Source: an uncultured Bacteroidia bacterium (GTDB lineage: Bacteria; Bacteroidota; Bacteroidia; Bacteroidales; UBA932). Taken from it: a DNA stretch of 62,785 bases. Below, piece by piece: positions 44,183-57,819 of this stretch. The position numbers and the translations under genes are program-made. Numbering within the stretch: position 1 is the first letter of the stretch; the number at the start of each line of letters is the position of its first letter. The notes beneath the pieces were generated by a model. The model worked only from the letters and a program-made list of their open reading frames with translations, did no database searches and was not told the origin of the DNA. Location: the NCBI GenBank assembly GCA_902785065.1, contig CACZXH010000028.1, forward strand, positions 1-62,785, in the 5' to 3' direction.

Positions 44183-45514
44183 TTACTTCGTCCGGCGGAT
44201 GAGGAGGGTGAGGCCGAGGAAGGTGAGGGCCGCGTTGAGGAGGAGGAGTTCGTAGCTGAACTTGTAGCCGCCGAACCAGCGTTCGGAGTTGAGCTGGAGG
44301 ACGAGGCAGATGGCCGGGGCGAGGAGCGCGACGATGGGCACGTACTTGTCTTTGACCTGTTTTTTCGTGAGAATGCCGAAGGCGAAAAGGCCGAGGATGG
44401 GGCCGTAGGTGTAGCTTGCGAGCTTGTAGACGGCGTCGATGGCGCTGGTGCTGTTCAGGGCATTGAAGACGACGATGGTCACGGCCATGAGGACGGCCAT
44501 CGCGAGGTGGACGCGCTTGCGGACCTTGACCTCGTCGGCCTTGCCCAGGATGTCCACCGTGAAGGAAGTCGTGAGGGAAGTGAGAGCCGATCCACCCGCG
44601 CCGTAGGCGCTGATCATGAGACCGACGACAAAGAGGACGCCCACGATGGCGGGCAGGAGGCCGCCGGTAGCGACGGCCGGAAAGAGGCTGTCGCCGGTTT
44701 CGGTAATGCCGTGCGCGGCCGCGAACTGGTACAGGAGCGAGCCCAGGCACAGGAAGCCGGCGATGACGACCGTCTGCAGGAGGCTGCTCACGATGAGGTT
44801 CTTCTGCGAGTCGCGGTGGTTCTTGCAGGCCAATGTCCGCTGCATCATGTCCTGGTCCAGGCCGGTCATCGCGATGACCGTGAACAGGCCCCCCAGGAGC
44901 TGTTTCCAGAAGTACTGCGGGTGGTTCACGTCGTCGAAGAAGAATACCCGCTCATGGATCCGGATGCCGCCGAGGTCGCGGCCGATGAAGAAGATCGTCA
45001 AGGCGACCGCCACAATCATGCAGGCGGTTCGGGCGACATCCACGCCGATGACGGATTTTACGCCATGCCGGAAGGTAAGGGCCAGACAGATCGCCACGTT
45101 ACAGAGCACATTCAGCCAGAAGGGGAGGCCCAAAGGCCCGAACATGAGCAGCTGCAGGGTCAGGCACACGAGGAACAGCCGGACCGAGGCCCCCAGCATC
45201 TTGGAGAGGAAGAAGAACCAGGCGCCCGTCTTGTAGGAAGCCAGGCCGAACCGGTTTTCCAGGTACTGGTAGATAGAGACGACGTTCAGTTTGAAATAGA
45301 GGGGCGTGAGCACGAAGGCGATGACCAGGTAGCCCAGGAAAAAGCCGATGCACATCTGCAGGTAGCCAAACCCGCTCGTGCCCACCATGCCCGGGACGGA
45401 GACGAATGTCACGCCGGACATGCAGGAGCCGATCATCGCGAAGGCGACAACGGCCCAGTGCGTCTTGCGCCCGCCGTTGTAGAAGGATGAATCCGGACTC
45501 TCTTTCTGCCTCAT
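44183..45514 (-). CDS. Sodium:solute symporter (SSS family), apparently lacking the first membrane segment
   Basis: 443 residues. SSS proteins move solutes with sodium. The characteristic start region GGRKTHWAVVAFAMIGSCMSG and GVTFVSVPGMVGTSGFGYLQM is intact, as are LSKMLGASVRLFLVCL and GLDQDMMQRTLACK. In relatives, one membrane helix precedes the GxRxxxW region. Here the protein begins MRQKESPDSSFYNGG, so TM1 seems to be absent. The ATG overlaps the stop of the LytTR gene (ATGA), which supports this start. The substrate is not readable; relatives carry sialic acid, sugars or nucleosides. It is likely controlled by, and translated with, the regulator. Confidence 0.85.
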   Translation of the reverse strand: MRQKESPDSSFYNGGRKTHWAVVAFAMIGSCMSGVTFVSVPGMVGTSGFGYLQMCIGFFLGYLVIAFVLTPLYFKLNVVSIYQYLENRFGLASYKTGAWFFFLSKMLGASVRLFLVCLTLQLLMFGPLGLPFWLNVLCNVAICLALTFRHGVKSVIGVDVARTACMIVAVALTIFFIGRDLGGIRIHERVFFFDDVNHPQYFWKQLLGGLFTVIAMTGLDQDMMQRTLACKNHRDSQKNLIVSSLLQTVVIAGFLCLGSLLYQFAAAHGITETGDSLFPAVATGGLLPAIVGVLFVVGLMISAYGAGGSALTSLTTSFTVDILGKADEVKVRKRVHLAMAVLMAVTIVVFNALNSTSAIDAVYKLASYTYGPILGLFAFGILTKKQVKDKYVPIVALLAPAICLVLQLNSERWFGGYKFSYELLLLNAALTFLGLTLLIRRTK

Positions 45515-46308
45515 TTCAGGTTCTCCTTATGGGCACGGCCCACCGGCAGGGGGGTGTCCACACCGACGAGTTTCACGGAGGTGGCCTTCTTGCTTTCAAT
45601 GCGGTGGACCGGGACGATGTAGGACCGGTGGATGCGGACGAACTTCCCTTCCGGAAGCATCTCCAGCAGGGCTTTCATGGTGATTTGGGAGACGACGTCC
45701 TTCTGGTGGTCCAGGTGGAGGCAGGCGTAGTTGTTCCGGGCCTCAATGTACTGGATGGCGGCGAGCGGGACCGTGACGTCCTTGTAGTCGGCCTTGACCG
45801 TCACCGTTTCGCCGGCGACGGCCTGGGCGGCCAGGGCCTCTACGGCGGACTGCACGGCCTGTGCCGCGGTCTGCTCGTCCTTCACGATCTCCAGCCGCCG
45901 GAGTTTCAGGACCAGGAAACCGGTGGCGAGCCCGACGCCCATCGCGGCGATATACAGTACCCAAACAGCCTGCTGGTACATATACAGCCTCGGCGGCCGG
46001 TCCGCGATCATTTCGCGGGGGAAAGAAACCTGTTTCAGGCTCATCAGGTAGGTGAGTACCGTGGCGAGGAAGACAACCGCCAGCGCGGTCCAACGTTTGT
46101 GCGAATCAAACAGCGCCGGGACCAGATGCCGGCCCAGATACCAGCACAGGTAGGTCCAGAGCAGATAGACAATGACATCCGATGCGCGCCAGAGGATCCA
46201 TTCGTTGACGGGGAATACCGATACGAGGCAAGGGATCAGGACCAGGCACACGCCAAGGTCCACCCAGCCTTCCATCTTCGTCTCGATTTTCTTGCCTTTT
46301 GCTTTCAT
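45511..46308 (-). CDS. Membrane-bound LytTR-type transcription regulator
   Basis: 265 residues from ATG 46308. The first half has four predicted membrane segments (LGVCLVLIPCLVSVFPVNEW; VIVYLLWTYLCWYLG; ALAVVFLATVLTYLM; AVWVLYIAAMGVGLATGFLV). A short cytoplasmic helix leads to a C-terminal LytTR DNA-binding domain (VPLAAIQYIEARNNYACLHL; GKFVRIHRSYIVPVHRI). There is no receiver domain and no paired LytS kinase nearby, so it would act as a one-component membrane sensor. The longer frame upstream is only antisense sequence. Its stop overlaps the symporter start, suggesting it senses or regulates the transported solute. Confidence 0.85.
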   Translation of the reverse strand: MKAKGKKIETKMEGWVDLGVCLVLIPCLVSVFPVNEWILWRASDVIVYLLWTYLCWYLGRHLVPALFDSHKRWTALAVVFLATVLTYLMSLKQVSFPREMIADRPPRLYMYQQAVWVLYIAAMGVGLATGFLVLKLRRLEIVKDEQTAAQAVQSAVEALAAQAVAGETVTVKADYKDVTVPLAAIQYIEARNNYACLHLDHQKDVVSQITMKALLEMLPEGKFVRIHRSYIVPVHRIESKKATSVKLVGVDTPLPVGRAHKENLK

Positions 46309-47725: not shown

Positions 47726-50512
47726 TCAAGTGCGCTTGGGGTAGTGGCCGGGCGGGACGCCGAACTTCCCTTTGAATCGGACCGAAAAATAGCTGGCGGA
47801 GCTGAAGCCCAGTTTGTCGGCCACCTCCGTCACGGTGTAGTTCCCGCTCTCGAGCATCTGGGCGGCGTGGCGGAGGCGCACGTCTTCGATGTACTCGCCG
47901 GGCGACATGCCGGTGGCCTCCTTCATCACCGTGGTCAACTTCGTCTTGCCCATGTTCAGTTCGTCACATAGCAAGGAGACGTTCAATTCCTTGGTGAACA
48001 GGTTGCGCTCCACCACGCCCAGCACGGCGTTGACGGTCTTGGCGTGGCGGGGTTCGCGCTCCAGCGCCTCGTTCTGCGTGTCCACATATTCCGAGATGAT
48101 CGCCCGCAGCCCCTTGGCTTTCCCATAGATGTCCTGGATGTCCTCGACCCCGCGCCCGCGGGCGCCGTATTCCTTGAAATATTGCTCAAGCTGGCCGATC
48201 ACGAGGTTGAGCGGGGTGCGCATCTTGAAGGACAGGTTGATGAAGAAGCTCGTCTGTTTGCGGGTTTCCTCTTCCTGGAGCCGCAGCTTTTCCCGCAGGA
48301 CCGCCTTCGTGTAGCGGTTGCGGATGATGTAGGTGAGGAAAGCCAGCAGGAGGATCACCTCCAGGAGGATGAACTGCGCGGAGGCGTACCAGACCGGCTT
48401 GATCCGGAACGGGAAGGAAAGCCCGTCAGCGCCGTCTTCGGGAGACAGGACCGGCCGGACCCGGAAGGTATAGTGCCCGGGGCGGAGGTTCATGTATTCG
48501 ACCGGAATCCGGATATCGACCGGCCTCCAGTCTGCCTCGAAGCCCTCGAGCATGCCGACATATTCCGTCCCCCGGATCTCGGTGAAATCGTAATCGGCGA
48601 GGTCGAAGGAGAAATTGGTCTGGGTATGGTCGAAGACGCGGGTGTCCGGCGGGACGCGCGTGCCGCCCACCCGCAGCCCGTCCAGGCGCAGCGGGGCGGT
48701 TTCGGCCGGGAAAGCCGCGTGCGCCGGGTCCAGGGACTCGATGCCGCCGATGCCGCCGAACCAGATCGTCCCGTCTGACAGCCGGAGGGTGGCGGAGGAC
48801 ATCGTGCTGCGGAAGGAGAGGCCGGATTCCTGGTTGAACATCCGGGCGGCGCCGTCTTTCAGGTCCAGGAACACGAGGCCTTTTTTCGTGCCGGCCGCCA
48901 CCAGATGGTCTCCGAAGGGCATGACATAGTTCATGCTCTGGCCCAGGATGCTGCTGCCCGCTCCGTCGTAGGCATGGACCTGGCCGTCGATGATGCCGAC
49001 AAGGCCCCTTTCCGTGGCGCACCACAAGGTGCCGTCGGCGGAGAATTCGAGGCCGTGGACCATCGTTTCTCCCGGGGCGAGGACGGGCCGGAGGGTGTTC
49101 CCGTCATAGCAGGAAACGCCGTTGCCGGCCAGCCAGATGCGTCTGTCCGGGCCGACGGCAACGGCGCGGACCTTCCCTTGCGTTCCCTCGATCTTCCGGG
49201 TGATCTGCTTCTCGCCGGCGGGGTTGAACAGGAAAGCGCCGTCCAGCGTGCCCAGGACCAGGTCGTTTCCGCATTGGCCCATGGACAGGATATACTGCTC
49301 CACGTCCCCGGCGGAGGCCGGTTCCAGCCGCCCTGCGGTGTCGATCTTTCCGTTGCGGGCATAGCGGAGCAGGTTCCCGGACCAGTCGCCGGCATAGACG
49401 GCGTCGGCGGCCGGGTCATACAGGATGCACTGGTGCTTGATGCCGTAACTTCCGCCCACCAGGACCCATTTTCCGTCGATATACCGGTGCATGCCGAAGG
49501 CGTCGGTCGCCGCCCAGACAATGCCCCGGGCGTCCTCTGCGAAGCCTCGGACCGGACCGTTCGTCACGGGCTGGGGGACCGCCCGGAAATGATAGGTGGA
49601 CACGTTGGCGTAGAACACGCCTGAATAGCAGGTGCCGACCCAGATGTTGCCGTCCTTGTCCCGGAAGACTTCATACACGGGAGTGGCGGCATTGCCGTTC
49701 AGCAGGATCTCGGAAAGCCGTCCGGACGGGTCGCGCCTGAACAGGCCGCTGGCGCTGCCCACATAGACGCATCCGCCCTCGGCGGCGGCAAAGGAACGCA
49801 CGTTCATGAGTTGCTTTCCGTCGCAGGCCGGATACCGCTCCAGGATCCGCCCGTCCCCGGCGTCGGCGACCCAGAGGCCGCCGCTTTTCAGCCCGAGCAG
49901 GAGCCGGCCGCCTTCCGGCGCGTCGGCGATGGCGAGGACGGGGTCCCGGGTCTCGATCCGGAACCCCCCGTCCGGGGAGACGACCCCTTGTTCCGTACCG
50001 ATCAGGAGCCGGCCGCCGGCGGTGCGGTGAAGGGCACAGACCAGCTCCGAATTCCCGGCGGGGAAGGGCATCGGCCGCGGCTCCTCCGTCGTTCCATCCA
50101 GGACGTACAGGGCCGGTCCGGCGCCGACGATCAGGGAGTCTCCCTCGGCCAGCTGGGCCGAGACGGGCTTGCCGCCACCGTCACCGAACGACCACAGCCG
50201 GGAAGTCCGGTCGGAAAGGTCGATGGCGGCCAGCCTACCGGCAGTTTTCACCCAGACGAAGCCGCTCCCGGCGACCATGTGGCCCTTCTCTCCATACCCC
50301 AGGACTTTCTCCAGCGTATGGCCGTTGTACCGGAAAACGCCGATGTTCGTGGAGAGCCACATCGCGCCTTCCCGGTCCTGGGCGAGCGAGTAGGCCCAGC
50401 TCTGGGAGATTTCCGACAGGTGGGCGGGCGACACGAAGTTCTCCTGCGCGGCGGCAGGACGGGAAAGCAAGAGCAATCCGGCGACCCCGACTGAAATTAA
50501 GCGATTTTGCAT
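47726..50512 (-). CDS. Kinase-less hybrid-sensor-like AraC regulator (Reg_prop / Y_Y_Y / HTH)
   Basis: 928 residues from ATG 50512 (MQNRLISVGVAGLLLL signal). Residues 25 to about 620 are seven-bladed propeller repeats of the Reg_prop type (EGAMWLSTNIGVFRYN; GNIWVGTCYSGVFY), then a Y_Y_Y domain (MNLRPGHYTFRVRP) and a membrane segment near 711-732. This is the periplasmic sensor plan of hybrid two-component systems. The dimerisation helix follows (FFINLSFKMRTPLNLV, from 756), but Phe762 replaces the phospho-accepting His. The ATPase and receiver domains are missing, and the chain goes straight to an AraC HTH (about 830-925, LESGNYTVTEVADKLGFSSA). It is divergent from the GH3-SusCD operon, which it probably controls. 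Confidence 0.88.
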   Translation of the reverse strand: MQNRLISVGVAGLLLLSRPAAAQENFVSPAHLSEISQSWAYSLAQDREGAMWLSTNIGVFRYNGHTLEKVLGYGEKGHMVAGSGFVWVKTAGRLAAIDLSDRTSRLWSFGDGGGKPVSAQLAEGDSLIVGAGPALYVLDGTTEEPRPMPFPAGNSELVCALHRTAGGRLLIGTEQGVVSPDGGFRIETRDPVLAIADAPEGGRLLLGLKSGGLWVADAGDGRILERYPACDGKQLMNVRSFAAAEGGCVYVGSASGLFRRDPSGRLSEILLNGNAATPVYEVFRDKDGNIWVGTCYSGVFYANVSTYHFRAVPQPVTNGPVRGFAEDARGIVWAATDAFGMHRYIDGKWVLVGGSYGIKHQCILYDPAADAVYAGDWSGNLLRYARNGKIDTAGRLEPASAGDVEQYILSMGQCGNDLVLGTLDGAFLFNPAGEKQITRKIEGTQGKVRAVAVGPDRRIWLAGNGVSCYDGNTLRPVLAPGETMVHGLEFSADGTLWCATERGLVGIIDGQVHAYDGAGSSILGQSMNYVMPFGDHLVAAGTKKGLVFLDLKDGAARMFNQESGLSFRSTMSSATLRLSDGTIWFGGIGGIESLDPAHAAFPAETAPLRLDGLRVGGTRVPPDTRVFDHTQTNFSFDLADYDFTEIRGTEYVGMLEGFEADWRPVDIRIPVEYMNLRPGHYTFRVRPVLSPEDGADGLSFPFRIKPVWYASAQFILLEVILLLAFLTYIIRNRYTKAVLREKLRLQEEETRKQTSFFINLSFKMRTPLNLVIGQLEQYFKEYGARGRGVEDIQDIYGKAKGLRAIISEYVDTQNEALEREPRHAKTVNAVLGVVERNLFTKELNVSLLCDELNMGKTKLTTVMKEATGMSPGEYIEDVRLRHAAQMLESGNYTVTEVADKLGFSSASYFSVRFKGKFGVPPGHYPKRT

Positions 50513-50532
50513 GCGACGATTAATGCAACGGA

Positions 50533-50540
50533 CAAAAGTA
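50533..50540 (-). promoter_or_regulatory. -7 box of the regulator gene
   Basis: The reverse strand reads TACTTTTG, a match to TAnnTTTG, 20 bases before the regulator ATG 50512. Confidence 0.55.
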
Positions 50541-50567
50541 TATAAAAACCCGAACAATATCAAATGC

Positions 50568-50585
50568 GCGGGCGGGCCCGCCCGC
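50568..50585. promoter_or_regulatory. 18-bp perfect GC palindrome between divergent promoters
   Basis: GCGGGCGGGCCCGCCCGC reads the same on both strands. It ends two bases before the GH3 -7 box (50587-50594) and lies 27 bases from the regulator -7 box, where a -33 element or an operator would be. It could bind the AraC-type regulator or form a hairpin. Confidence 0.45.
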
Positions 50586-50586
50586 C

Positions 50587-50594
50587 TATATTTG
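50587..50594 (+). promoter_or_regulatory. -7 box of the GH3-SusCD operon
   Basis: TATATTTG matches TAnnTTTG and precedes ATG 50610 by 15 bases. It rules out the longer open frame that begins at 50511. Confidence 0.6.
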
Positions 50595-50609: not shown

Positions 50610-53009
50610 ATGACACTGAGCACGTTAGCCATTCTCACCCTACTGGGCGTTTCCCCCGCCCGGGAGATCTACCACAACCGGTGGACAGATTTCAACAAAA
50701 ACGGCAAGATGGACGTTTTTGAGAATCCGAAAGCCCGGGTGGAGGACCGGGTCGAAGACCTGCTGGGGCAGATGACGTTCGAGGAAAAGACCTGTCAGCT
50801 GGCCACCCTGTACGGCGTGGGCCGCGTCCTGAAAGATCCCCTTCCGACAGATGCCTGGAAGACGCAGGTCTGGGCCGACGGCCTGGCGAACATCGACGAG
50901 CAGCTGAACGGCGTCGGCAAGGCCGGCAAGACGTATTCCGACCTGATCTACCCGTTCTCGAACCATGTCGAAGCGCTTCACACCACCCAGCGGTGGTTCA
51001 TCGAGAACACCCGGCTCGGCATCCCCGTCGAATTTTCGAACGAAGGCATCCATGGACTGAACCATACCCTGGCCACGCCGCTTCCGGCTCCGATCGCCAT
51101 CGGTTCCACCTGGGACCGAGACCTGGTCCGGGAAGCCGGCCGGATCGTCGGAAAAGAAGCCTCCCTGCTGGGCTACCATAGCGTTTATGCGCCCATCCTC
51201 GACATCGCCCGCGACCAGCGCTGGGGACGGACCCTGGAATGCTACGGGGAGGACCCCTTCGTGGTCGCGGAGCTCGGCATCCAGATGGCGACGGGAATCC
51301 AGGAACAGGGCGTCGCCTCCGGCCTGAAACATTACGTCGCCTACGGCGTCCCCAAGGGCGGCCGCGACGCCGACTGCCGCACGGACCCCCACATCAATCC
51401 CCGGGAGCTGCACGAACTGTATCTCTATCCCTTCAGGCGGGTCATCGAAGCGGCGCATCCGCTGGAAGTGATGTCCAGCTACAACGACTGGAACGGCGAG
51501 CCTGTGAGCGCGTCGCCTTATTTCCTGACCGAACTGCTGCGCGACACCTACGGCTTCGACGGCTATGTGGTCAGTGACAGCGACGCCGTGGAATTCGTCC
51601 ACACCAAGCACAAAGTCGCCGACACCTACGACGAGGCAGTCCGCCAGGTCCTGGAAGCCGGACTCAACGTCCGGACGAATTTCTCCGAGCCGTCCATCTT
51701 CATCGAGGCGGTCCGCCGCCTCCTCGCCGACGGACGCCTGTCGGAAGAAACCCTGAACCGGCGGGTGCGGGAAGTCCTTTCCGTCAAGTTCCGCCTGGGC
51801 CTGTTCGACCGTCCGTTCTCCGGAGACGGGAAGAAAGCGGATGCGGAGGCCGGCGTGGACAAGCATGCCGACTTCGTCCGGCAGATGGGCCGGGAGGCCG
51901 TCGTGCTCCTGAAGAATGAGAACCATCTCCTGCCGCTGGATAAGAAAGCCTTGTCCCGGATCCTGGTGACGGGCCCGCTCGCGGACGAAGACAATTATAT
52001 GACGAGCCGCTACGGCCCCGACGGCATTCCGTCCGTCACGATGCTCCAGGGCATCCGGAACTACCTGGCCTCCAGCGGTGTTACGGTCGATTATGAGAAA
52101 GGATGCGACGTGAAGGACGCGATGTGGCCGGTCAGCGAGATCATGCACGAGCCCATGACCGAGGAAGAGGAAGCCGATATCCGGAAAGCGGTCGCCAAGG
52201 CCGCGGAGGCCGATATCGTCATCGCCGTCGTGGGAGAAGACAAGAACCTGACGGGGGAGAGCCGGTCCCGGACGTCCCTCGACCTTCCCGGCCGGCAGCA
52301 CGAGCTGCTCATGGCTCTGCACAAGACCGGCAAGCCGGTCGTTGTGGTCCTCGTGAACGGCCAGCCGCTGACGGTCAACTGGGAGAACGAGCACCTGCCC
52401 GCCATCGTGGAGATGTGGTTCCCCGCGAGCCAGGGCGGCGCCATCCTGGCCGAGACCCTGTTCGGGGACAACAACCCCAGCGGCAAGCTCACGGTGACCT
52501 TCCCCAAGACGGTCGGCCAGATCGAGACGAACTTCCCCTACAAGCGGGGCTCCGAGGGCGGCCAGAACCGCATCGGCGACCCGAACGGCTGGGGTGTGAC
52601 CCGGGTCATCGGCCCGCTGTACCCCTTCGGCTACGGCCTGAGCTATACGGAGTTCTCCTACACGGACCTGGAGGTCCGTAAGCAGGACGACAACCGGATC
52701 GACGTATCCTTCGACCTGGCCAACACCGGCTGGTATGAGGGGACCGAGGTGGTGCAGCTGTATGTCCGCGACCGGTACAGTTCCGTGGTCGCCTACGACT
52801 CCGTCCTCCGCGGATTCGAGCGGGTCTCCCTGAAGCCGGGCGAGAAGCGCCGCGTGCATTTCACGCTCGCGGGGAAAGACCTCTGCCTCCTCGGCAAGGA
52901 CATGCGCTGGGTCACGGAAGCCGGCGACTTCGATGTCCTCGTGGGCGCCAGCTCGGCGGACATCCGCTTACAAGGAACCTTTACCATCGAAAAAGACCAA
53001 CAATACTAA
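50610..53009 (+). CDS. Glycoside hydrolase family 3 (beta-glucosidase-like)
   Basis: 799 residues. GH3 enzymes remove beta-linked glucose, xylose or related sugars from non-reducing ends. A short hydrophobic N-terminus (MTLSTLAILTLLGVSPA) may be a signal. The TIM-barrel domain has QRWGRTLECYGEDPF, GLKHYVAYG and the nucleophile Asp323 in GYVVSDSDAV. The second domain has GEDKNLTGESRSRTSLDLPG, which carries the likely acid/base Glu, and the C-terminal fibronectin-like domain is present (YPFGYGLSYTEFSY; VVQLYVRD). It leads the operon with SusC 29 bases after its stop. A beta-glucosidase or beta-glucuronosidase-type exo role would suit the lyase nearby. Confidence 0.92.
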   Translation: MTLSTLAILTLLGVSPAREIYHNRWTDFNKNGKMDVFENPKARVEDRVEDLLGQMTFEEKTCQLATLYGVGRVLKDPLPTDAWKTQVWADGLANIDEQLNGVGKAGKTYSDLIYPFSNHVEALHTTQRWFIENTRLGIPVEFSNEGIHGLNHTLATPLPAPIAIGSTWDRDLVREAGRIVGKEASLLGYHSVYAPILDIARDQRWGRTLECYGEDPFVVAELGIQMATGIQEQGVASGLKHYVAYGVPKGGRDADCRTDPHINPRELHELYLYPFRRVIEAAHPLEVMSSYNDWNGEPVSASPYFLTELLRDTYGFDGYVVSDSDAVEFVHTKHKVADTYDEAVRQVLEAGLNVRTNFSEPSIFIEAVRRLLADGRLSEETLNRRVREVLSVKFRLGLFDRPFSGDGKKADAEAGVDKHADFVRQMGREAVVLLKNENHLLPLDKKALSRILVTGPLADEDNYMTSRYGPDGIPSVTMLQGIRNYLASSGVTVDYEKGCDVKDAMWPVSEIMHEPMTEEEEADIRKAVAKAAEADIVIAVVGEDKNLTGESRSRTSLDLPGRQHELLMALHKTGKPVVVVLVNGQPLTVNWENEHLPAIVEMWFPASQGGAILAETLFGDNNPSGKLTVTFPKTVGQIETNFPYKRGSEGGQNRIGDPNGWGVTRVIGPLYPFGYGLSYTEFSYTDLEVRKQDDNRIDVSFDLANTGWYEGTEVVQLYVRDRYSSVVAYDSVLRGFERVSLKPGEKRRVHFTLAGKDLCLLGKDMRWVTEAGDFDVLVGASSADIRLQGTFTIEKDQQY

Positions 53010-53038: not shown

Positions 53039-56000
53039 ATGTTACCTATCCGAAAACTCATCCTTTCAGTAGGTTTGCTCGCAGCGGCATTCGCATGCTT
53101 CGTCCCCGCCCGGACCGCCTGGGCGCAGACGGCGCAGCAGGCCGCCCGGATCACCGTCGCCGGCAAGGTCGTCGACGAGACCGGCGAACCCCTGATGGGC
53201 GCCTCCGTGTTTGTCAAGGGGACAAACAACGGAACCGTGACTGACCTGGACGGGCAGTATTCCTTATCGGTCCCCGCCGGATCGGTGCTGGAGGTTTCCT
53301 TCATGGGCTATGAAACCCAGAATGTGACCGTCAACACGTCCGGCCGCGTGGACGTCGCGCTCCAGCCCGACAGCGATTACCTGAACGAAGTGGTGGTCGT
53401 GGGCTACGGCATCCAGAAGAAGGTGGACCTGAGCGGCTCCGTCTCCGTGGTGAACGGCGAGCAGATCACGTCCCGCCCCGCCCCGGACGCCCTTTCCGCC
53501 ATCCAGGGCGCCATGCCCGGCGTGCAGGTCCTCCGCAGCAGCGGTGAACCGGGATCCGAGACCTCCGGCATCCGCGTCCGCGGCTTCTCATCGGCCAACA
53601 GCACCAGCACGCTCGTGCTCATCGACGGGGTCGAGGGCGACATGACCCTCCTGAACCCCAACGACATCGAGTCCATCTCCGTCCTGAAGGACGCGGCGGC
53701 CGCCGCCATCTACGGCGCCCGCGCCGCGGCCGGCGTCGTCCTGGTGACGACCAAGTCCGGCGCCAACAGCGGCGGCAAGGCCACGGTCACCTACAACGGA
53801 TACTATGCCTTCAACGTGCCGACGGTGCTCCCGGAGCGCCTCCCTACGTGGGAAGAGCAGGAAATGATCAACATCTCCCGCTTCAACCAGGGCGGCAAGG
53901 TGGAGTGGAACCCGGAGCAGAGCTACTGGACCTCCAACGCGAACTTCAACTACCGCAAGAACCCGAACGGCCGCTGGGACCTGTTCAGCGCCGAGAACTG
54001 GATCCTGGACGGTACCAAGCGGTTTACGACCCAGCAGCAGCATTCCGTCTCCGTCAGCGGCGGCAGCGACAAGGTGAACTACTACGTGTCGGGCAGCTAC
54101 TATGACAAGGACGGTATCCTGAAATACGGTCCGGACTCCAACCAGCGTTACAACCTCCGCGCGAAGTTCACCGCCCAGGTGAACAAGTACATCGACCTGG
54201 GCGTCCAGGCTTCCTATGACGGCAAGTTCGTTGAGACCAACCCGTACGGGACGAAGAGCATCCTCGAGCGCCTGTACCGCATCCGCAGCCGGCAGCCCAT
54301 CTACGCGCCGGAGGAGGATCCGAACGAGAATCCCTACAACGGCGACCTGCAGGTCAACCCGATCGACATCATGGAGAACGGCGGCCTCAACAAGAACCAG
54401 TACCATTCCATCATGGGCCGCGGCAATGTCCGTATCAAGAACCTGGTGAAGGGCCTCTCCTTCGACCTGGCGGCGAGCCGCAAGTACGGCTTCTACAACC
54501 AGAGCATCGAGCGGCATTTCCTGCTGTGGAACGGCTGGAACGGCGCCAAGCGCTTCGACGCCAACAACCCGAACTCCTTCTCCCGGACGATGAACAACGA
54601 TTACCATGACAACATCGAGGCGATCGTCCGCTACGACCTCAAGGCCGGCAAGCACACGTTCAACGCCATGGGCGGCTATTCCTTCGAGCAGTACCGCAAG
54701 GAGCAGATGAGCACCGAGGTGAAGAACCTCAACTCGAACACCTTCTACTCGCTCAATTATTACGCTTCCGACGTCGCTGCCAACACGACCGTGAAGGACG
54801 ATGTCCAGACCTGGGCGATGATGTCCGTGTTCGGCCGCCTGAACTACAACTATGCGGAGCGCTACCTGTTCGAGGCCAACATCCGGTATGACGGAAGCTC
54901 CCGCCTCGCGCCGGAATCCCGCTGGCACGCCTTCCCGTCCTTCTCGGCCGCCTGGCGCATCTCCAATGAGGAATGGTTCGGCAAGGGCGTCGTGAGCAAC
55001 CTCAAGCTCCGCGCCTCCTGGGGCCAGCTCGGTAACGGCGCCATCCTGGGCCTGTACGACTACATCCCCCTGATCTCTTCCGGCGCGGACATGGGCGTCA
55101 AGAACTACTACCAGTCCGAGATGGCCTCCAAGTCCAAGACCTGGGAAGTGATCTCCAGCACCAACTTCGGTATCGACCTCGGAATGTTCGAAAACCGGCT
55201 CACCCTGACGGCGGACATCTACCAGAAGGTCAATGACAACATGCTCGCCTCCCTGGAGCTCCCGCACGTGGTGGGCATCACCGTCCCGTCCGCCAATGTC
55301 GGTACGCTGAAGACCAAGGGCTGGGAGTTCGAGATCGGCTGGCGCGACCAGATCGGCGACTTCGGCTACAACCTGGGCTTCAACCTCTCCGACGCCAACA
55401 GCGTCCTGGTGAAATATGACGGCCGCAGCACCGTGAGCGAAGGCGTCGTCTCCCTGCTGGAAGGCTATCCGATGAACACCATCTGGGGCTACAAGACCGA
55501 CGGTTACTGGTCCAGCCGCGAGGAATACACCGACTACAAGGCCGCGCATCCGGGCTACCAGTCCTTCGGCGACGCCAACATCACCGGCGGTGACATCAAG
55601 TACGTCGCCCAGGGCGAACCCAACCACACGATCGGCGCCGGCAACGGCGTTCCCGGCGACTCCGGCGACCTGGTCCAGCTGGGCGACTGCAACTCCCACT
55701 ACCTGTACGCATTCAACCTGGGCTTGAACTGGAAGGGCATTGACTTTTCGGCCATGATCCAGGGCGTCGGCAAGCGAAACGTGCTCATCGAGACCAAGAC
55801 CATCGCCCCGTTCGCCCAGAGCTCGAACATGCCATGGACGATCCACCGCGACTACTGGACGGAGGACAACCAGGACGCGTTCTGGCCCCGCCTCTACCAC
55901 TACAACAACGGTGAAATCTTCAACTTCCACGCCAGCGACCGCTGGATCCAGGACGCCTCCTACATCCGCTTGAAGAACATCCAGCTCGGTTATACCCTGC

Positions 56001-56167
56001 CCTTCAAGAAAGCCGTCCGCAAGATGCGCGTGTACGTATCCGGACAGGATGTCTGGTTCCACTCCAAGATGCTGGGTGTCTTCGACCCTGAAGTCGGCAA
56101 TACGGCGACGGCCAGCGTGTATCCTTTCTTCGGCACCTGGTCCCTGGGCCTCAATTTGACCTTCTAA
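53039..56167 (+). CDS. SusC-family TonB-dependent transporter of the PUL
   Basis: 1042 residues. The signal peptide is cut near TAWAQ. The carboxypeptidase-like domain (ITVAGKVVDETGEPLMGASV; about 37-125), TonB box LNEVVVVGYG, plug (ISVLKDAAAAAIYGARAAAG; about 218-237) and barrel ending GLNLTF are all present. It would import the oligosaccharides bound by the SusD lipoprotein in the next gene. The operon partners are GH3, SusD and a small lipoprotein, with an alginate-lyase-type enzyme convergent at the end. Confidence 0.95.
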   Translation: MLPIRKLILSVGLLAAAFACFVPARTAWAQTAQQAARITVAGKVVDETGEPLMGASVFVKGTNNGTVTDLDGQYSLSVPAGSVLEVSFMGYETQNVTVNTSGRVDVALQPDSDYLNEVVVVGYGIQKKVDLSGSVSVVNGEQITSRPAPDALSAIQGAMPGVQVLRSSGEPGSETSGIRVRGFSSANSTSTLVLIDGVEGDMTLLNPNDIESISVLKDAAAAAIYGARAAAGVVLVTTKSGANSGGKATVTYNGYYAFNVPTVLPERLPTWEEQEMINISRFNQGGKVEWNPEQSYWTSNANFNYRKNPNGRWDLFSAENWILDGTKRFTTQQQHSVSVSGGSDKVNYYVSGSYYDKDGILKYGPDSNQRYNLRAKFTAQVNKYIDLGVQASYDGKFVETNPYGTKSILERLYRIRSRQPIYAPEEDPNENPYNGDLQVNPIDIMENGGLNKNQYHSIMGRGNVRIKNLVKGLSFDLAASRKYGFYNQSIERHFLLWNGWNGAKRFDANNPNSFSRTMNNDYHDNIEAIVRYDLKAGKHTFNAMGGYSFEQYRKEQMSTEVKNLNSNTFYSLNYYASDVAANTTVKDDVQTWAMMSVFGRLNYNYAERYLFEANIRYDGSSRLAPESRWHAFPSFSAAWRISNEEWFGKGVVSNLKLRASWGQLGNGAILGLYDYIPLISSGADMGVKNYYQSEMASKSKTWEVISSTNFGIDLGMFENRLTLTADIYQKVNDNMLASLELPHVVGITVPSANVGTLKTKGWEFEIGWRDQIGDFGYNLGFNLSDANSVLVKYDGRSTVSEGVVSLLEGYPMNTIWGYKTDGYWSSREEYTDYKAAHPGYQSFGDANITGGDIKYVAQGEPNHTIGAGNGVPGDSGDLVQLGDCNSHYLYAFNLGLNWKGIDFSAMIQGVGKRNVLIETKTIAPFAQSSNMPWTIHRDYWTEDNQDAFWPRLYHYNNGEIFNFHASDRWIQDASYIRLKNIQLGYTLPFKKAVRKMRVYVSGQDVWFHSKMLGVFDPEVGNTATASVYPFFGTWSLGLNLTF

Positions 56168-56172
56168 AAGCG

Positions 56173-57819
56173 ATGACGACCATGAAACAGATATTCAAGC
56201 AGATCATTCTCTCGGCCGCGGCGCTCGCCGTCGTCGGCTGCAGCCTGGACCGCCTGCCCGAAACCACCCTGACCGACTCCAACTTCTGGCAGTCGGAGAC
56301 CGACCTCCGCGGCGCCTGCAACCGCCTCTATCAGCAGATGGGCGGCCAGCTGGGCGGCTTCTACCACGACTACCGTTCCGACGAACTCGTGGGCAACTCG
56401 GCGAACAGCATTTCCGACGGCAGCCGGACCGTTCCTTCCACCTCTTCGGACTGGACGGATCCCTACTGGCGGATCAACATCTCCAACAACATCCTCAAGA
56501 AGGCCCCGAACGCCAAGGTGACGGAAGACGTGCTGAACAAGTACCTCGCGGAAGCCTATTTCTTCCGGGCCTACCACTACTTTGAGCTGGTCAAGCGCTA
56601 TGGCGACGTCCCGCTCATCACCGAGGTGATCGAGAGCACCGACGATCCCCGGCTGGATTCGCCCCGCGCCCCGCGCGAGGAGGTCATCCAGCAGTGCTAT
56701 GCGGACCTCAAGTTCGCCCAGGACAACCTGCCCGACATCGACAGCCAGACCTGGGGTTACGCCTCCAAGTCCGCGGCGCTCGCCCTCCAGGTGAGGATCG
56801 GCCTCTACGAAGGCACCCGCGCCAAGTACCACGGCTACGGCTCCGACTATAACGCGCATCTCGACAAGGCCATCACGGCCGCCGAGAAGCTGATCGCCAG
56901 CGGCAAGCACGACCTGTTCCCGAACTTCGAGACGCTCTTCAAGTTCGAGGGCGAAGGCCGCGCCAACAAGGAAGCGATCTTTGTCAAGCAGTACGGCCCC
57001 AACGGCGCCGGCACGACCGTCCACGGCAACTGCCGCCAGCTGGAGAACACGGTCAACCTCACCAAGAACATCGTCGACCTGTTCCTGTACACCGACGGTC
57101 TCCCCGAGAGAAAGACGAACGTGAAGCCGGAGGTGGTCGACAGCTACAACGCGTCCTTCATCAACCGCGACCCCCGCATGGACTTCACCTGCGTGCAGGC
57201 CAATGCGGACTTCGTCCCCGGCAAGGGTGTTTTCCGGACGTTCTTCGAGTCCGCCAAGGGCTACAAGATCCACAAGGGATTCATCGGCACGGAATGGTCC
57301 TCCAACAGCAAGGAGACCGTCGACAAGATGGTCATCCGCTACGCCGAGGTGCTCATCTCCTATGCCGAGGCTCTCTACGAGCGGAACGGCTCCATCACGG
57401 ACGACCAGCTGGACAAGACTGTCAACAAGCTCCGCGCCCGCGTGGGCTTCCCGGTCATGCTCACGAACGCGTTCGTTTCGGCCAACGGCCTGAACATGCG
57501 GGATGAGATCCGCCGCGAAAGGACCGTCGAGTTCATCGACGAAGGCATGCGCTACGACGACATCATGCGCTGGAAGATTGCGGAGAACGTGCTCCCCGTC
57601 ACCCTGCTCGGCGCCAAGTACAATGCGGACGAGACCAATGCGGCCTACAACGACCTCAAGCCCGTCCTGGACGCGAACGACTATTACATCATCGAAAAAG
57701 CGGCCAACCGCGTGTTCGATCCCAAGAAGGATTACCTGTATCCCGTCCCGCTGAAGGAAATCTCCCTCACCGGCGGCGCCGTGACCCAGAATCCCGGTTG
57801 GAAAGCTACGGAGGACTAA
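56173..57819 (+). CDS. SusD/RagB-family lipoprotein of the PUL
   Basis: 548 residues from ATG 56173; ATG 56182 (MKQIFKQ) is an alternative giving 545. The lipobox VVGC gives a lipidated Cys near residue 23. Typical SusD features: LPETTLTDSNFWQSETDLRG at the N-terminus, AEAYFFRAYHYFELVKRYGD (TPR), and RRERTVEFIDEGMRYDDIMR near the C-terminus. It begins a few bases after the SusC stop. Substrate binding on the cell surface is the family role; the glycan is unknown. Confidence 0.94.
   Translation: MTTMKQIFKQIILSAAALAVVGCSLDRLPETTLTDSNFWQSETDLRGACNRLYQQMGGQLGGFYHDYRSDELVGNSANSISDGSRTVPSTSSDWTDPYWRINISNNILKKAPNAKVTEDVLNKYLAEAYFFRAYHYFELVKRYGDVPLITEVIESTDDPRLDSPRAPREEVIQQCYADLKFAQDNLPDIDSQTWGYASKSAALALQVRIGLYEGTRAKYHGYGSDYNAHLDKAITAAEKLIASGKHDLFPNFETLFKFEGEGRANKEAIFVKQYGPNGAGTTVHGNCRQLENTVNLTKNIVDLFLYTDGLPERKTNVKPEVVDSYNASFINRDPRMDFTCVQANADFVPGKGVFRTFFESAKGYKIHKGFIGTEWSSNSKETVDKMVIRYAEVLISYAEALYERNGSITDDQLDKTVNKLRARVGFPVMLTNAFVSANGLNMRDEIRRERTVEFIDEGMRYDDIMRWKIAENVLPVTLLGAKYNADETNAAYNDLKPVLDANDYYIIEKAANRVFDPKKDYLYPVPLKEISLTGGAVTQNPGWKATED

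Follow-up and report, generated by a model that had tools for sequence, protein, structure and literature searches.

The 928-residue protein encoded on the reverse strand of the window, here the whole analysed stretch of 62,785 nucleotides, raises the question of how a protein laid out like a hybrid two-component system (HTCS) may regulate its neighbouring genes once kinase and receiver are gone, and from what it descends. HTCSs are described as uniting the domains of the relay in a single polypeptide (PMC3878776), or most of them are (PMC3243724).

The reading frame begins with an ATG at 50512 and stays open over 928 codons to position 47726, stop codon included. The encoded domain order is Reg_prop propellers, a weak Y_Y_Y domain, a TM helix, a two-helix DHp relic, a short linker and an intact AraC domain (Table 1). 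Pfam searches at E<=1 returned Reg_prop (68.4 bits), HTH_18 (76.7 bits) and HTH_AraC (43.9 bits), together with Y_Y_Y at 17.5 bits, under its cut-off of 26.6, and SGL and Vgb_lyase, also under theirs; HATPase_c, Response_reg and HisKA gave no match in the 928 residues even at this threshold. Of the structures in the PDB, the periplasmic domain of BT4663 (4a2m) best matches the fold of the protein model, with E 4.6e-42 and a TM-score of 0.60 by the length of the query; together with the Reg_prop and sub-cut-off Y_Y_Y matches, this bears out the original prediction that the Reg_prop/Y_Y_Y periplasmic plan is kept. The predicted absence of kinase, receiver and phospho-His likewise agrees with Pfam and with the alignment, in which the H-box FFINLSFKMRTPLNL is matched with FFINLSHELRTPLTL of the full-length relative L137, with Phe762 in place of His and Lys763 in place of Glu.

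The structure was predicted as an AlphaFold2 monomer from an alignment of 46 rows (mean pLDDT 86.5). After the propeller strands, a single helix (residues 712-785) contains the TM segment as well as DHp helix 1, and DHp helix 2 (789-816) and then the AraC helices follow; confidence is low across the DHp, whose ten-residue blocks have pLDDT 64-75, and in the linker block 811-820 (46), and residues 812-821 form a stretch with pLDDT under 50. Because Pfam HisKA gives no match in the window protein, its DHp relic was recognised through the alignment and the model; in the closest relative the corresponding stretch clears the HisKA cut-off (27.6 vs 26.9). The dimerisation helix claimed at the outset is thus present as a DHp relic, but both DHp helices are retained, not one alone. 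Since ATPase and receiver are missing and the His is replaced by Phe, phosphate cannot be passed along this chain in the usual way.

Table 1 Features of the regulator locus, with positions in the window
Feature	Positions	Strand	Basis
HTCS-derived regulator, kinase-less and receiver-less (class A), 928 aa	47726..50512	-	ORF, Pfam
Periplasmic sensor with Reg_prop propellers and Y_Y_Y-like domain, residues 25-706	48395..50440	-	Pfam, PDB fold match
TM part of long helix, residues about 712-733	48314..48379	-	Hydrophobic run by eye, model helix 712-785
DHp helix 1 relic, residues 755-785	48158..48250	-	Alignment, model
Phe762 at the phospho-accepting His site	48227..48229	-	Alignment
DHp helix 2 relic, residues 789-816	48065..48148	-	Alignment, model
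AraC DNA-binding domain, residues 822-927	47732..48049	-	HTH_18, 76.7 bits
GH3 glycoside hydrolase, divergent neighbour	50610..53009	+	Pfam; ATG 50610 taken, longest ORF from 50511
SusC-like TonB-dependent receptor	53039..56167	+	Pfam Plug, CarbopepD_reg_2
SusD-like protein	56173..57819	+	Pfam SusD_RagB
Predicted operator, two 12-nt half-sites in direct repeat at 22-bp spacing	50529..50562	+	Self-similarity, scans
-7 box TATATTTG of GH3 operon, 24 bp from proximal half-site	50587..50594	+	
Regulator gene's own promoter-like TTTG-N20-TACTTTTG, overlapped by predicted operator	50533..50564	-	

In order to find relatives, the regulator protein was searched in genomes of the same genus (101, then 400), family (398) and order (393); in the searches of 400, 398 and 393 genomes the two best candidates per genome were scored, so that their counts are lower bounds. 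The genus search gave at least 14 places in 12 of the 400 genomes at E<=1e-50, one further relative (L042) came from the family search, and none of the 392 other genomes in the order search reached E<=1e-50, the own genome being the sole match among 393, so that, within this lower bound, a wide distribution outside the family was rejected. A contig scan retained 78 loci, which were typed by single-sequence domain probes; by these probes six lack the ATPase and two of them also the receiver, and all six lie on contigs that, by their length, are those of loci from the genome searches. The search for homologues with the same domain order that had been proposed with the original prediction revealed three other species with the plan that lacks both ATPase and receiver (class A), at 33-39% identity to the regulator. 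At the His site these carry Tyr (L026), Leu (L133, whose start codon is uncertain, its 798 aa being counted from a TTG) and Arg (L132), next to Phe in the window protein. Being common to four species, the class A plan exceeds chance.

Seven further proteins are without the ATPase and keep the receiver (class B). The His is retained in L027, L042, L139 and L140, and the alignment shows the receiver acid pair and the MPxMDG loop in all four; L027:6974-10324, L042:1544-4741 and L139:359-3619 have Arg or Gln for the Glu beside the His. The other three, L041:6216-9557, L136:5663-8950 and L138:2295-5621, have Arg for the His and a degenerate receiver, in which the phospho-Asp and Lys positions remain, the first receiver acid is Ser and the MPxMDG loop is gone. 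L043, L135 and L137 are full HTCSs among the close matches. In L134:5069-7672 ATPase, receiver and DHp are all missing, which leaves a Reg_prop sensor and an AraC domain only; its genome, G502, also encodes the class A protein L133.

A tree was computed from an alignment of 20 rows and 958 columns, from which the ATPase and receiver columns had been removed. All 11 ATPase-less proteins of classes A and B form one clade (support 100/99) nested within the full HTCSs, which are the nearest outgroup of that clade in the tree rather than direct orthologues of the regulator gene. Within it, class A is a clade (100/99), as are three of the four His-keeping class B proteins (100/100) and the three Arg proteins (100/100), while L140 is a long branch with an uncertain place at the base. 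Since these 11 proteins, including the receiver-keeping relatives, make up one clade within full HTCSs, the losses of ATPase, His and receiver look stepwise. All eight full HTCSs have the Glu next to the His; of the 11 ATPase-less proteins, L140 alone has it. Because the Arg proteins form one clade, the concordance of His and receiver-site changes in them counts as one event, beside the loss in class A. L134 falls among full HTCSs (95/99) on a long branch whose placement is flagged as unsure, and by its position probably represents a separate, independent loss.

Class A proteins, compared in pairs, are on average 53.8% identical in DHp helix 1, 45.8% in helix 2, 29.4% in the propellers and 57.1% in the AraC domain; the five nearest full HTCSs give 70.6%, 57.1%, 39.6% and 58.9%, respectively. 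The TM segment is weakly conserved in both sets (20.5% and 32.7%). Judged by these identities, the DHp of class A is not decaying.

In most HTCSs the receiver is described to keep the AraC domain inactive via an S/CHIP-DK contact (excerpts of Gao et al. 2024, PMC11253607). The contact Asp is given there for 95% and the Lys for 96% of HTCSs among 6,908 sequences, which makes the pair typical of HTCSs rather than strictly defining, and disturbing the contact is reported to lead to DNA binding without phosphate. We located the contact sites by the 39-residue spacing of D1344 and K1383 in the same excerpts. Both residues are present in all eight full HTCSs of our alignment, and neither is kept in any of the four class A proteins, where the pair is His823/Val862 in the window protein and N/R, H/T and G/R in the others. 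In class B the Asp is found in five and the Lys in three of the seven proteins; L134 has D/R. The contact pair is thus wholly lost where the receiver is lost, and is partly lost already in ATPase-less proteins that keep the receiver, including those that keep the His.

The regulator gene and the GH3-susC-susD genes are divergent, with 97 bp between them given the GH3 start at ATG 50610. A GH3 gene (Pfam) is likewise the divergent neighbour of L026, the closest homologue; its product is 50% identical to the window GH3, and the gene is followed by a 467-aa ORF and then by an ORF that is SusC-like by eye. In the upstream regions of 15 loci, self-similarity at a distance of 22 bp summed to 149 against 113.6 +/- 4.4 in first-order Markov shuffles, the maximum at any spacing being 130 in 200 shuffles. 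The signal persists without the Arg clade (111 vs 91.3 +/- 4.0) and in class A alone (40 vs 29.7 +/- 2.2), and none of 300 shuffles equalled either of these scores at any spacing.

Half-sites were chosen by eye in seven loci before the leave-one-out scans, which recovered the predicted repeat in all four class A loci (p 0.001 to 0.005); L132 was never in the training set, and its region was widened between the self-similarity test and the scan. The gap from the repeat to a TAnnTTTG box is 24 bp in the window, 23 bp in L026 and 24 bp in both L133 and L132. Six of the 11 remaining loci also have the repeat at p<=0.007, with gaps of 25 bp (L042), 24 bp (L041 and L136), 27 bp (L138) and 25 bp (L137), and no box in L139. 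Marginal repeats were seen in L027 (p 0.039, gap 14 bp) and L140 (p 0.028, no box), and the scan gave no repeat in three of the 15 regions (L135, L043 and L134), so that two of the three full HTCSs in the scan are among the misses. The window site is the top match on both strands of the window, and its copy of GRACAAWA-N14-GRACAAWA is the single exact occurrence in the genome.

The promoter boxes of the GH3 operon and of the regulator gene were assigned by the Bacteroides promoter consensus; in the 24 bp upstream of the -7 box of the GH3 operon TTTG is absent. A perfect 18-bp palindrome, GCGGGCGGGCCCGCCCGC, lies at 50568-50585 between the predicted operator and the -7 box and, even with one mismatch allowed, occurs nowhere else in the genome. 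It was not preferred as operator, since none of nine other divergent regions examined contains a palindrome of at least 12 bp.

What remains in the regulator is the sensor, one uninterrupted helix, a bundle of the dimer type and, a few residues on, the AraC domain, together with an ancestral layout of the predicted operator. We consider it probable that the protein is a dimeric, membrane-tethered AraC activator of HTCS descent that controls the divergent GH3-susC-susD operon without phosphorylation, coupled through the DHp and gated by a ligand, with the geometry of the bundle replacing the phosphate. The domain losses, the clade, the conserved DHp helices and the predicted operator with its promoter spacing were computed; we infer dimerisation, the ligand, gating by geometry, and activation rather than repression. 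Against this reading weigh the low confidence of the monomer model in DHp and linker, the missing receiver brake, the choice of half-sites by eye in seven loci together with the misses of the scan, and the poor conservation of the TM segment in class A. An oligosaccharide would bind the propeller/Y_Y_Y sensor, and the resulting movement would be transmitted via the continuous TM-DHp helix to a chemically dead DHp bundle, which may determine how two AraC domains are arranged on the direct repeat, spaced by 22 bp, at 50529-50562. The AraC pair on the repeat would then turn on the divergent operon, and the regulator's own overlapping promoter may be down-tuned. Ligand binding would in this way drive the AraC domain directly, as originally predicted, and the neighbouring sugar-uptake genes are probably still under the control of the regulator.

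A tentative extension, which we regard as possible though rather doubtful, is that the mechanical route from sensor through DHp to AraC dimer, free of phosphate, pre-existed in full HTCSs and that the relay was discarded in steps. The ATPase would have gone before the rest, with the Glu beside the His soon after, followed by the His, along with either the receiver or the receiver's active site, and then by the receiver contact. Linked to this is the possibility that the His- and Asp-keeping ATPase-less sisters take phosphate from another kinase.

An AraC dimer that always sits on the operator, as a DNA-bound repressor released by the ligand or as a constitutive regulator to which the ligand is irrelevant, seems an unlikely alternative. 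The regulator might bind DNA constitutively because the receiver, the known brake on AraC, is gone and because, in the excerpts of PMC11253607, a loosened receiver-AraC contact permits DNA binding without phosphate; both AraC contact residues are missing in the window protein, and the non-consensus HTCS BT2391 is described in the same source as a repressor of its PUL. Against this, the predicted operator lies upstream of the would-be -33 box, at 24 bp from the -7 box, as would be expected for an activator, and the gap is 23-27 bp in the 8 of 15 loci that have both the repeat at p<=0.007 and a -7 box, among them the full HTCS L137 (25 bp) and receiver-keeping relatives. The large sensor is moreover retained in all four class A proteins.

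Histidine kinases usually dimerise through their DHp helices, and the retention of these helices could also mean that the protein is an obligate heterodimer subunit, serving as co-sensor or dominant-negative partner of a full-length HTCS. The own genome does encode full HTCSs; they are among its matches to the regulator, along with two 977-aa kinase-less proteins, but these matches are 23-39% identical over parts only and all lie on other contigs. Pfam scans of 14 window ORFs (four of which had no Pfam match) revealed neither a kinase nor a receiver, and a separate gene for either of them next door was rejected on this count. As the predicted operator is moreover the regulator's own, its pattern matching exactly at one place in the genome, we think such a partnership improbable. 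Least credible of all is a decaying pseudogene, a strain-specific deletion or an assembly error, despite the fragmented assemblies of the source genomes: the frame is open over 928 codons, and the DHp and AraC domains and the predicted operator are conserved. A deletion or assembly fault peculiar to this strain was rejected, since the same plan occurs in three other species and, with seven intermediates, in a single clade; the deletion unique to one strain that would have spoken against the original prediction was looked for and not found.

HTCSs such as BT4663 and BT0366 share with the regulator the Reg_prop/Y_Y_Y sensor, the TM segment, the DHp helices and the AraC domain, as well as a divergent susC/D operon and a direct-repeat operator, the latter predicted in the window. 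Of the features that mark an HTCS, the regulator possesses the Reg_prop/Y_Y_Y sensor and the AraC domain and is without the phospho-His, the HATPase_c domain, a receiver with phospho-Asp and the receiver-contact Asp/Lys, so it is no HTCS by membership, yet appears to descend from one. With sensor, TM segment (by eye and model) and DNA-binding domain in one chain and neither kinase nor receiver, it corresponds to the membrane one-component regulators (TTR), described in excerpts of PMC10269533 as a large known class. In kind, then, it is not new, and a precedent in the same excerpts is Rsp of Neisseria, in which the receptor part of PilS is joined to the DNA-binding domain of PilR. By that description, Rsp and the regulator alike join sensor, TM segment and DNA-binding domain, parts of two-component origin, in one chain without a kinase; the regulator differs in its DHp relic between TM segment and AraC domain and in its surviving intermediates, Rsp being built from PilS and PilR.

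In BT4236 of B. thetaiotaomicron a Gln occupies the phospho-His site, and the authors suggest a phosphorylation-independent mechanism (excerpts of PMC11253607). The phospho-His is by this description replaced in both proteins, but BT4236 retains a receiver, as its contact motif CSIP-EK implies, whereas the regulator is without ATPase and receiver. SusR-like regulators also join a periplasmic sensor and a cytoplasmic DNA-binding part in one chain over a sus operon, and are set apart by a DNA-binding domain described as unlike those of known regulators (excerpts of PMC3878776).

In the literature searched (titles and opening abstract lines, with subscription journals thinly covered) we found no description of ATPase-less HTCSs. 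As far as this search shows, the clade of HTCSs without an ATPase may be new, as may its stepwise series and the joint loss of the receiver contact. The relatives offer a natural series from a full phosphorelay to a phosphate-free regulator with a similar predicted operator layout, and it can therefore be asked which parts of an HTCS carry the signal and which act as brake. The series also cautions that two-component annotation from the sensor alone can mislead, and its members may serve as compact glycan sensors in engineering.

The own genome further encodes two 977-aa proteins, L028:7389-10319 and L033:2204-5134, with Reg_prop, Y_Y_Y and AraC and neither kinase nor receiver. They differ from the regulator in having no HisKA stretch and a charged, coiled-coil-like linker, and they fall outside a 17-row clade that holds the window protein; by tree position they would not be close kin of it, with long branches meeting there. 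A search for this type in 149 genomes of the order, with five candidates per genome, gave matches in six other genomes at E<=1e-40: three loci are full HTCSs and three lack HisKA, ATPase, receiver and AraC by single-sequence probes, so that no further case of this type was seen among the 149. L028 faces ORFs that are SusC- and SusD-like by eye. A few genes away from the regulator, at 45511-46170 on the reverse strand of the window, a LytTR domain protein with an N-terminus hydrophobic by eye is the sole other regulator among the 14 ORFs, and it too is apparently membrane-bound and without a receiver.
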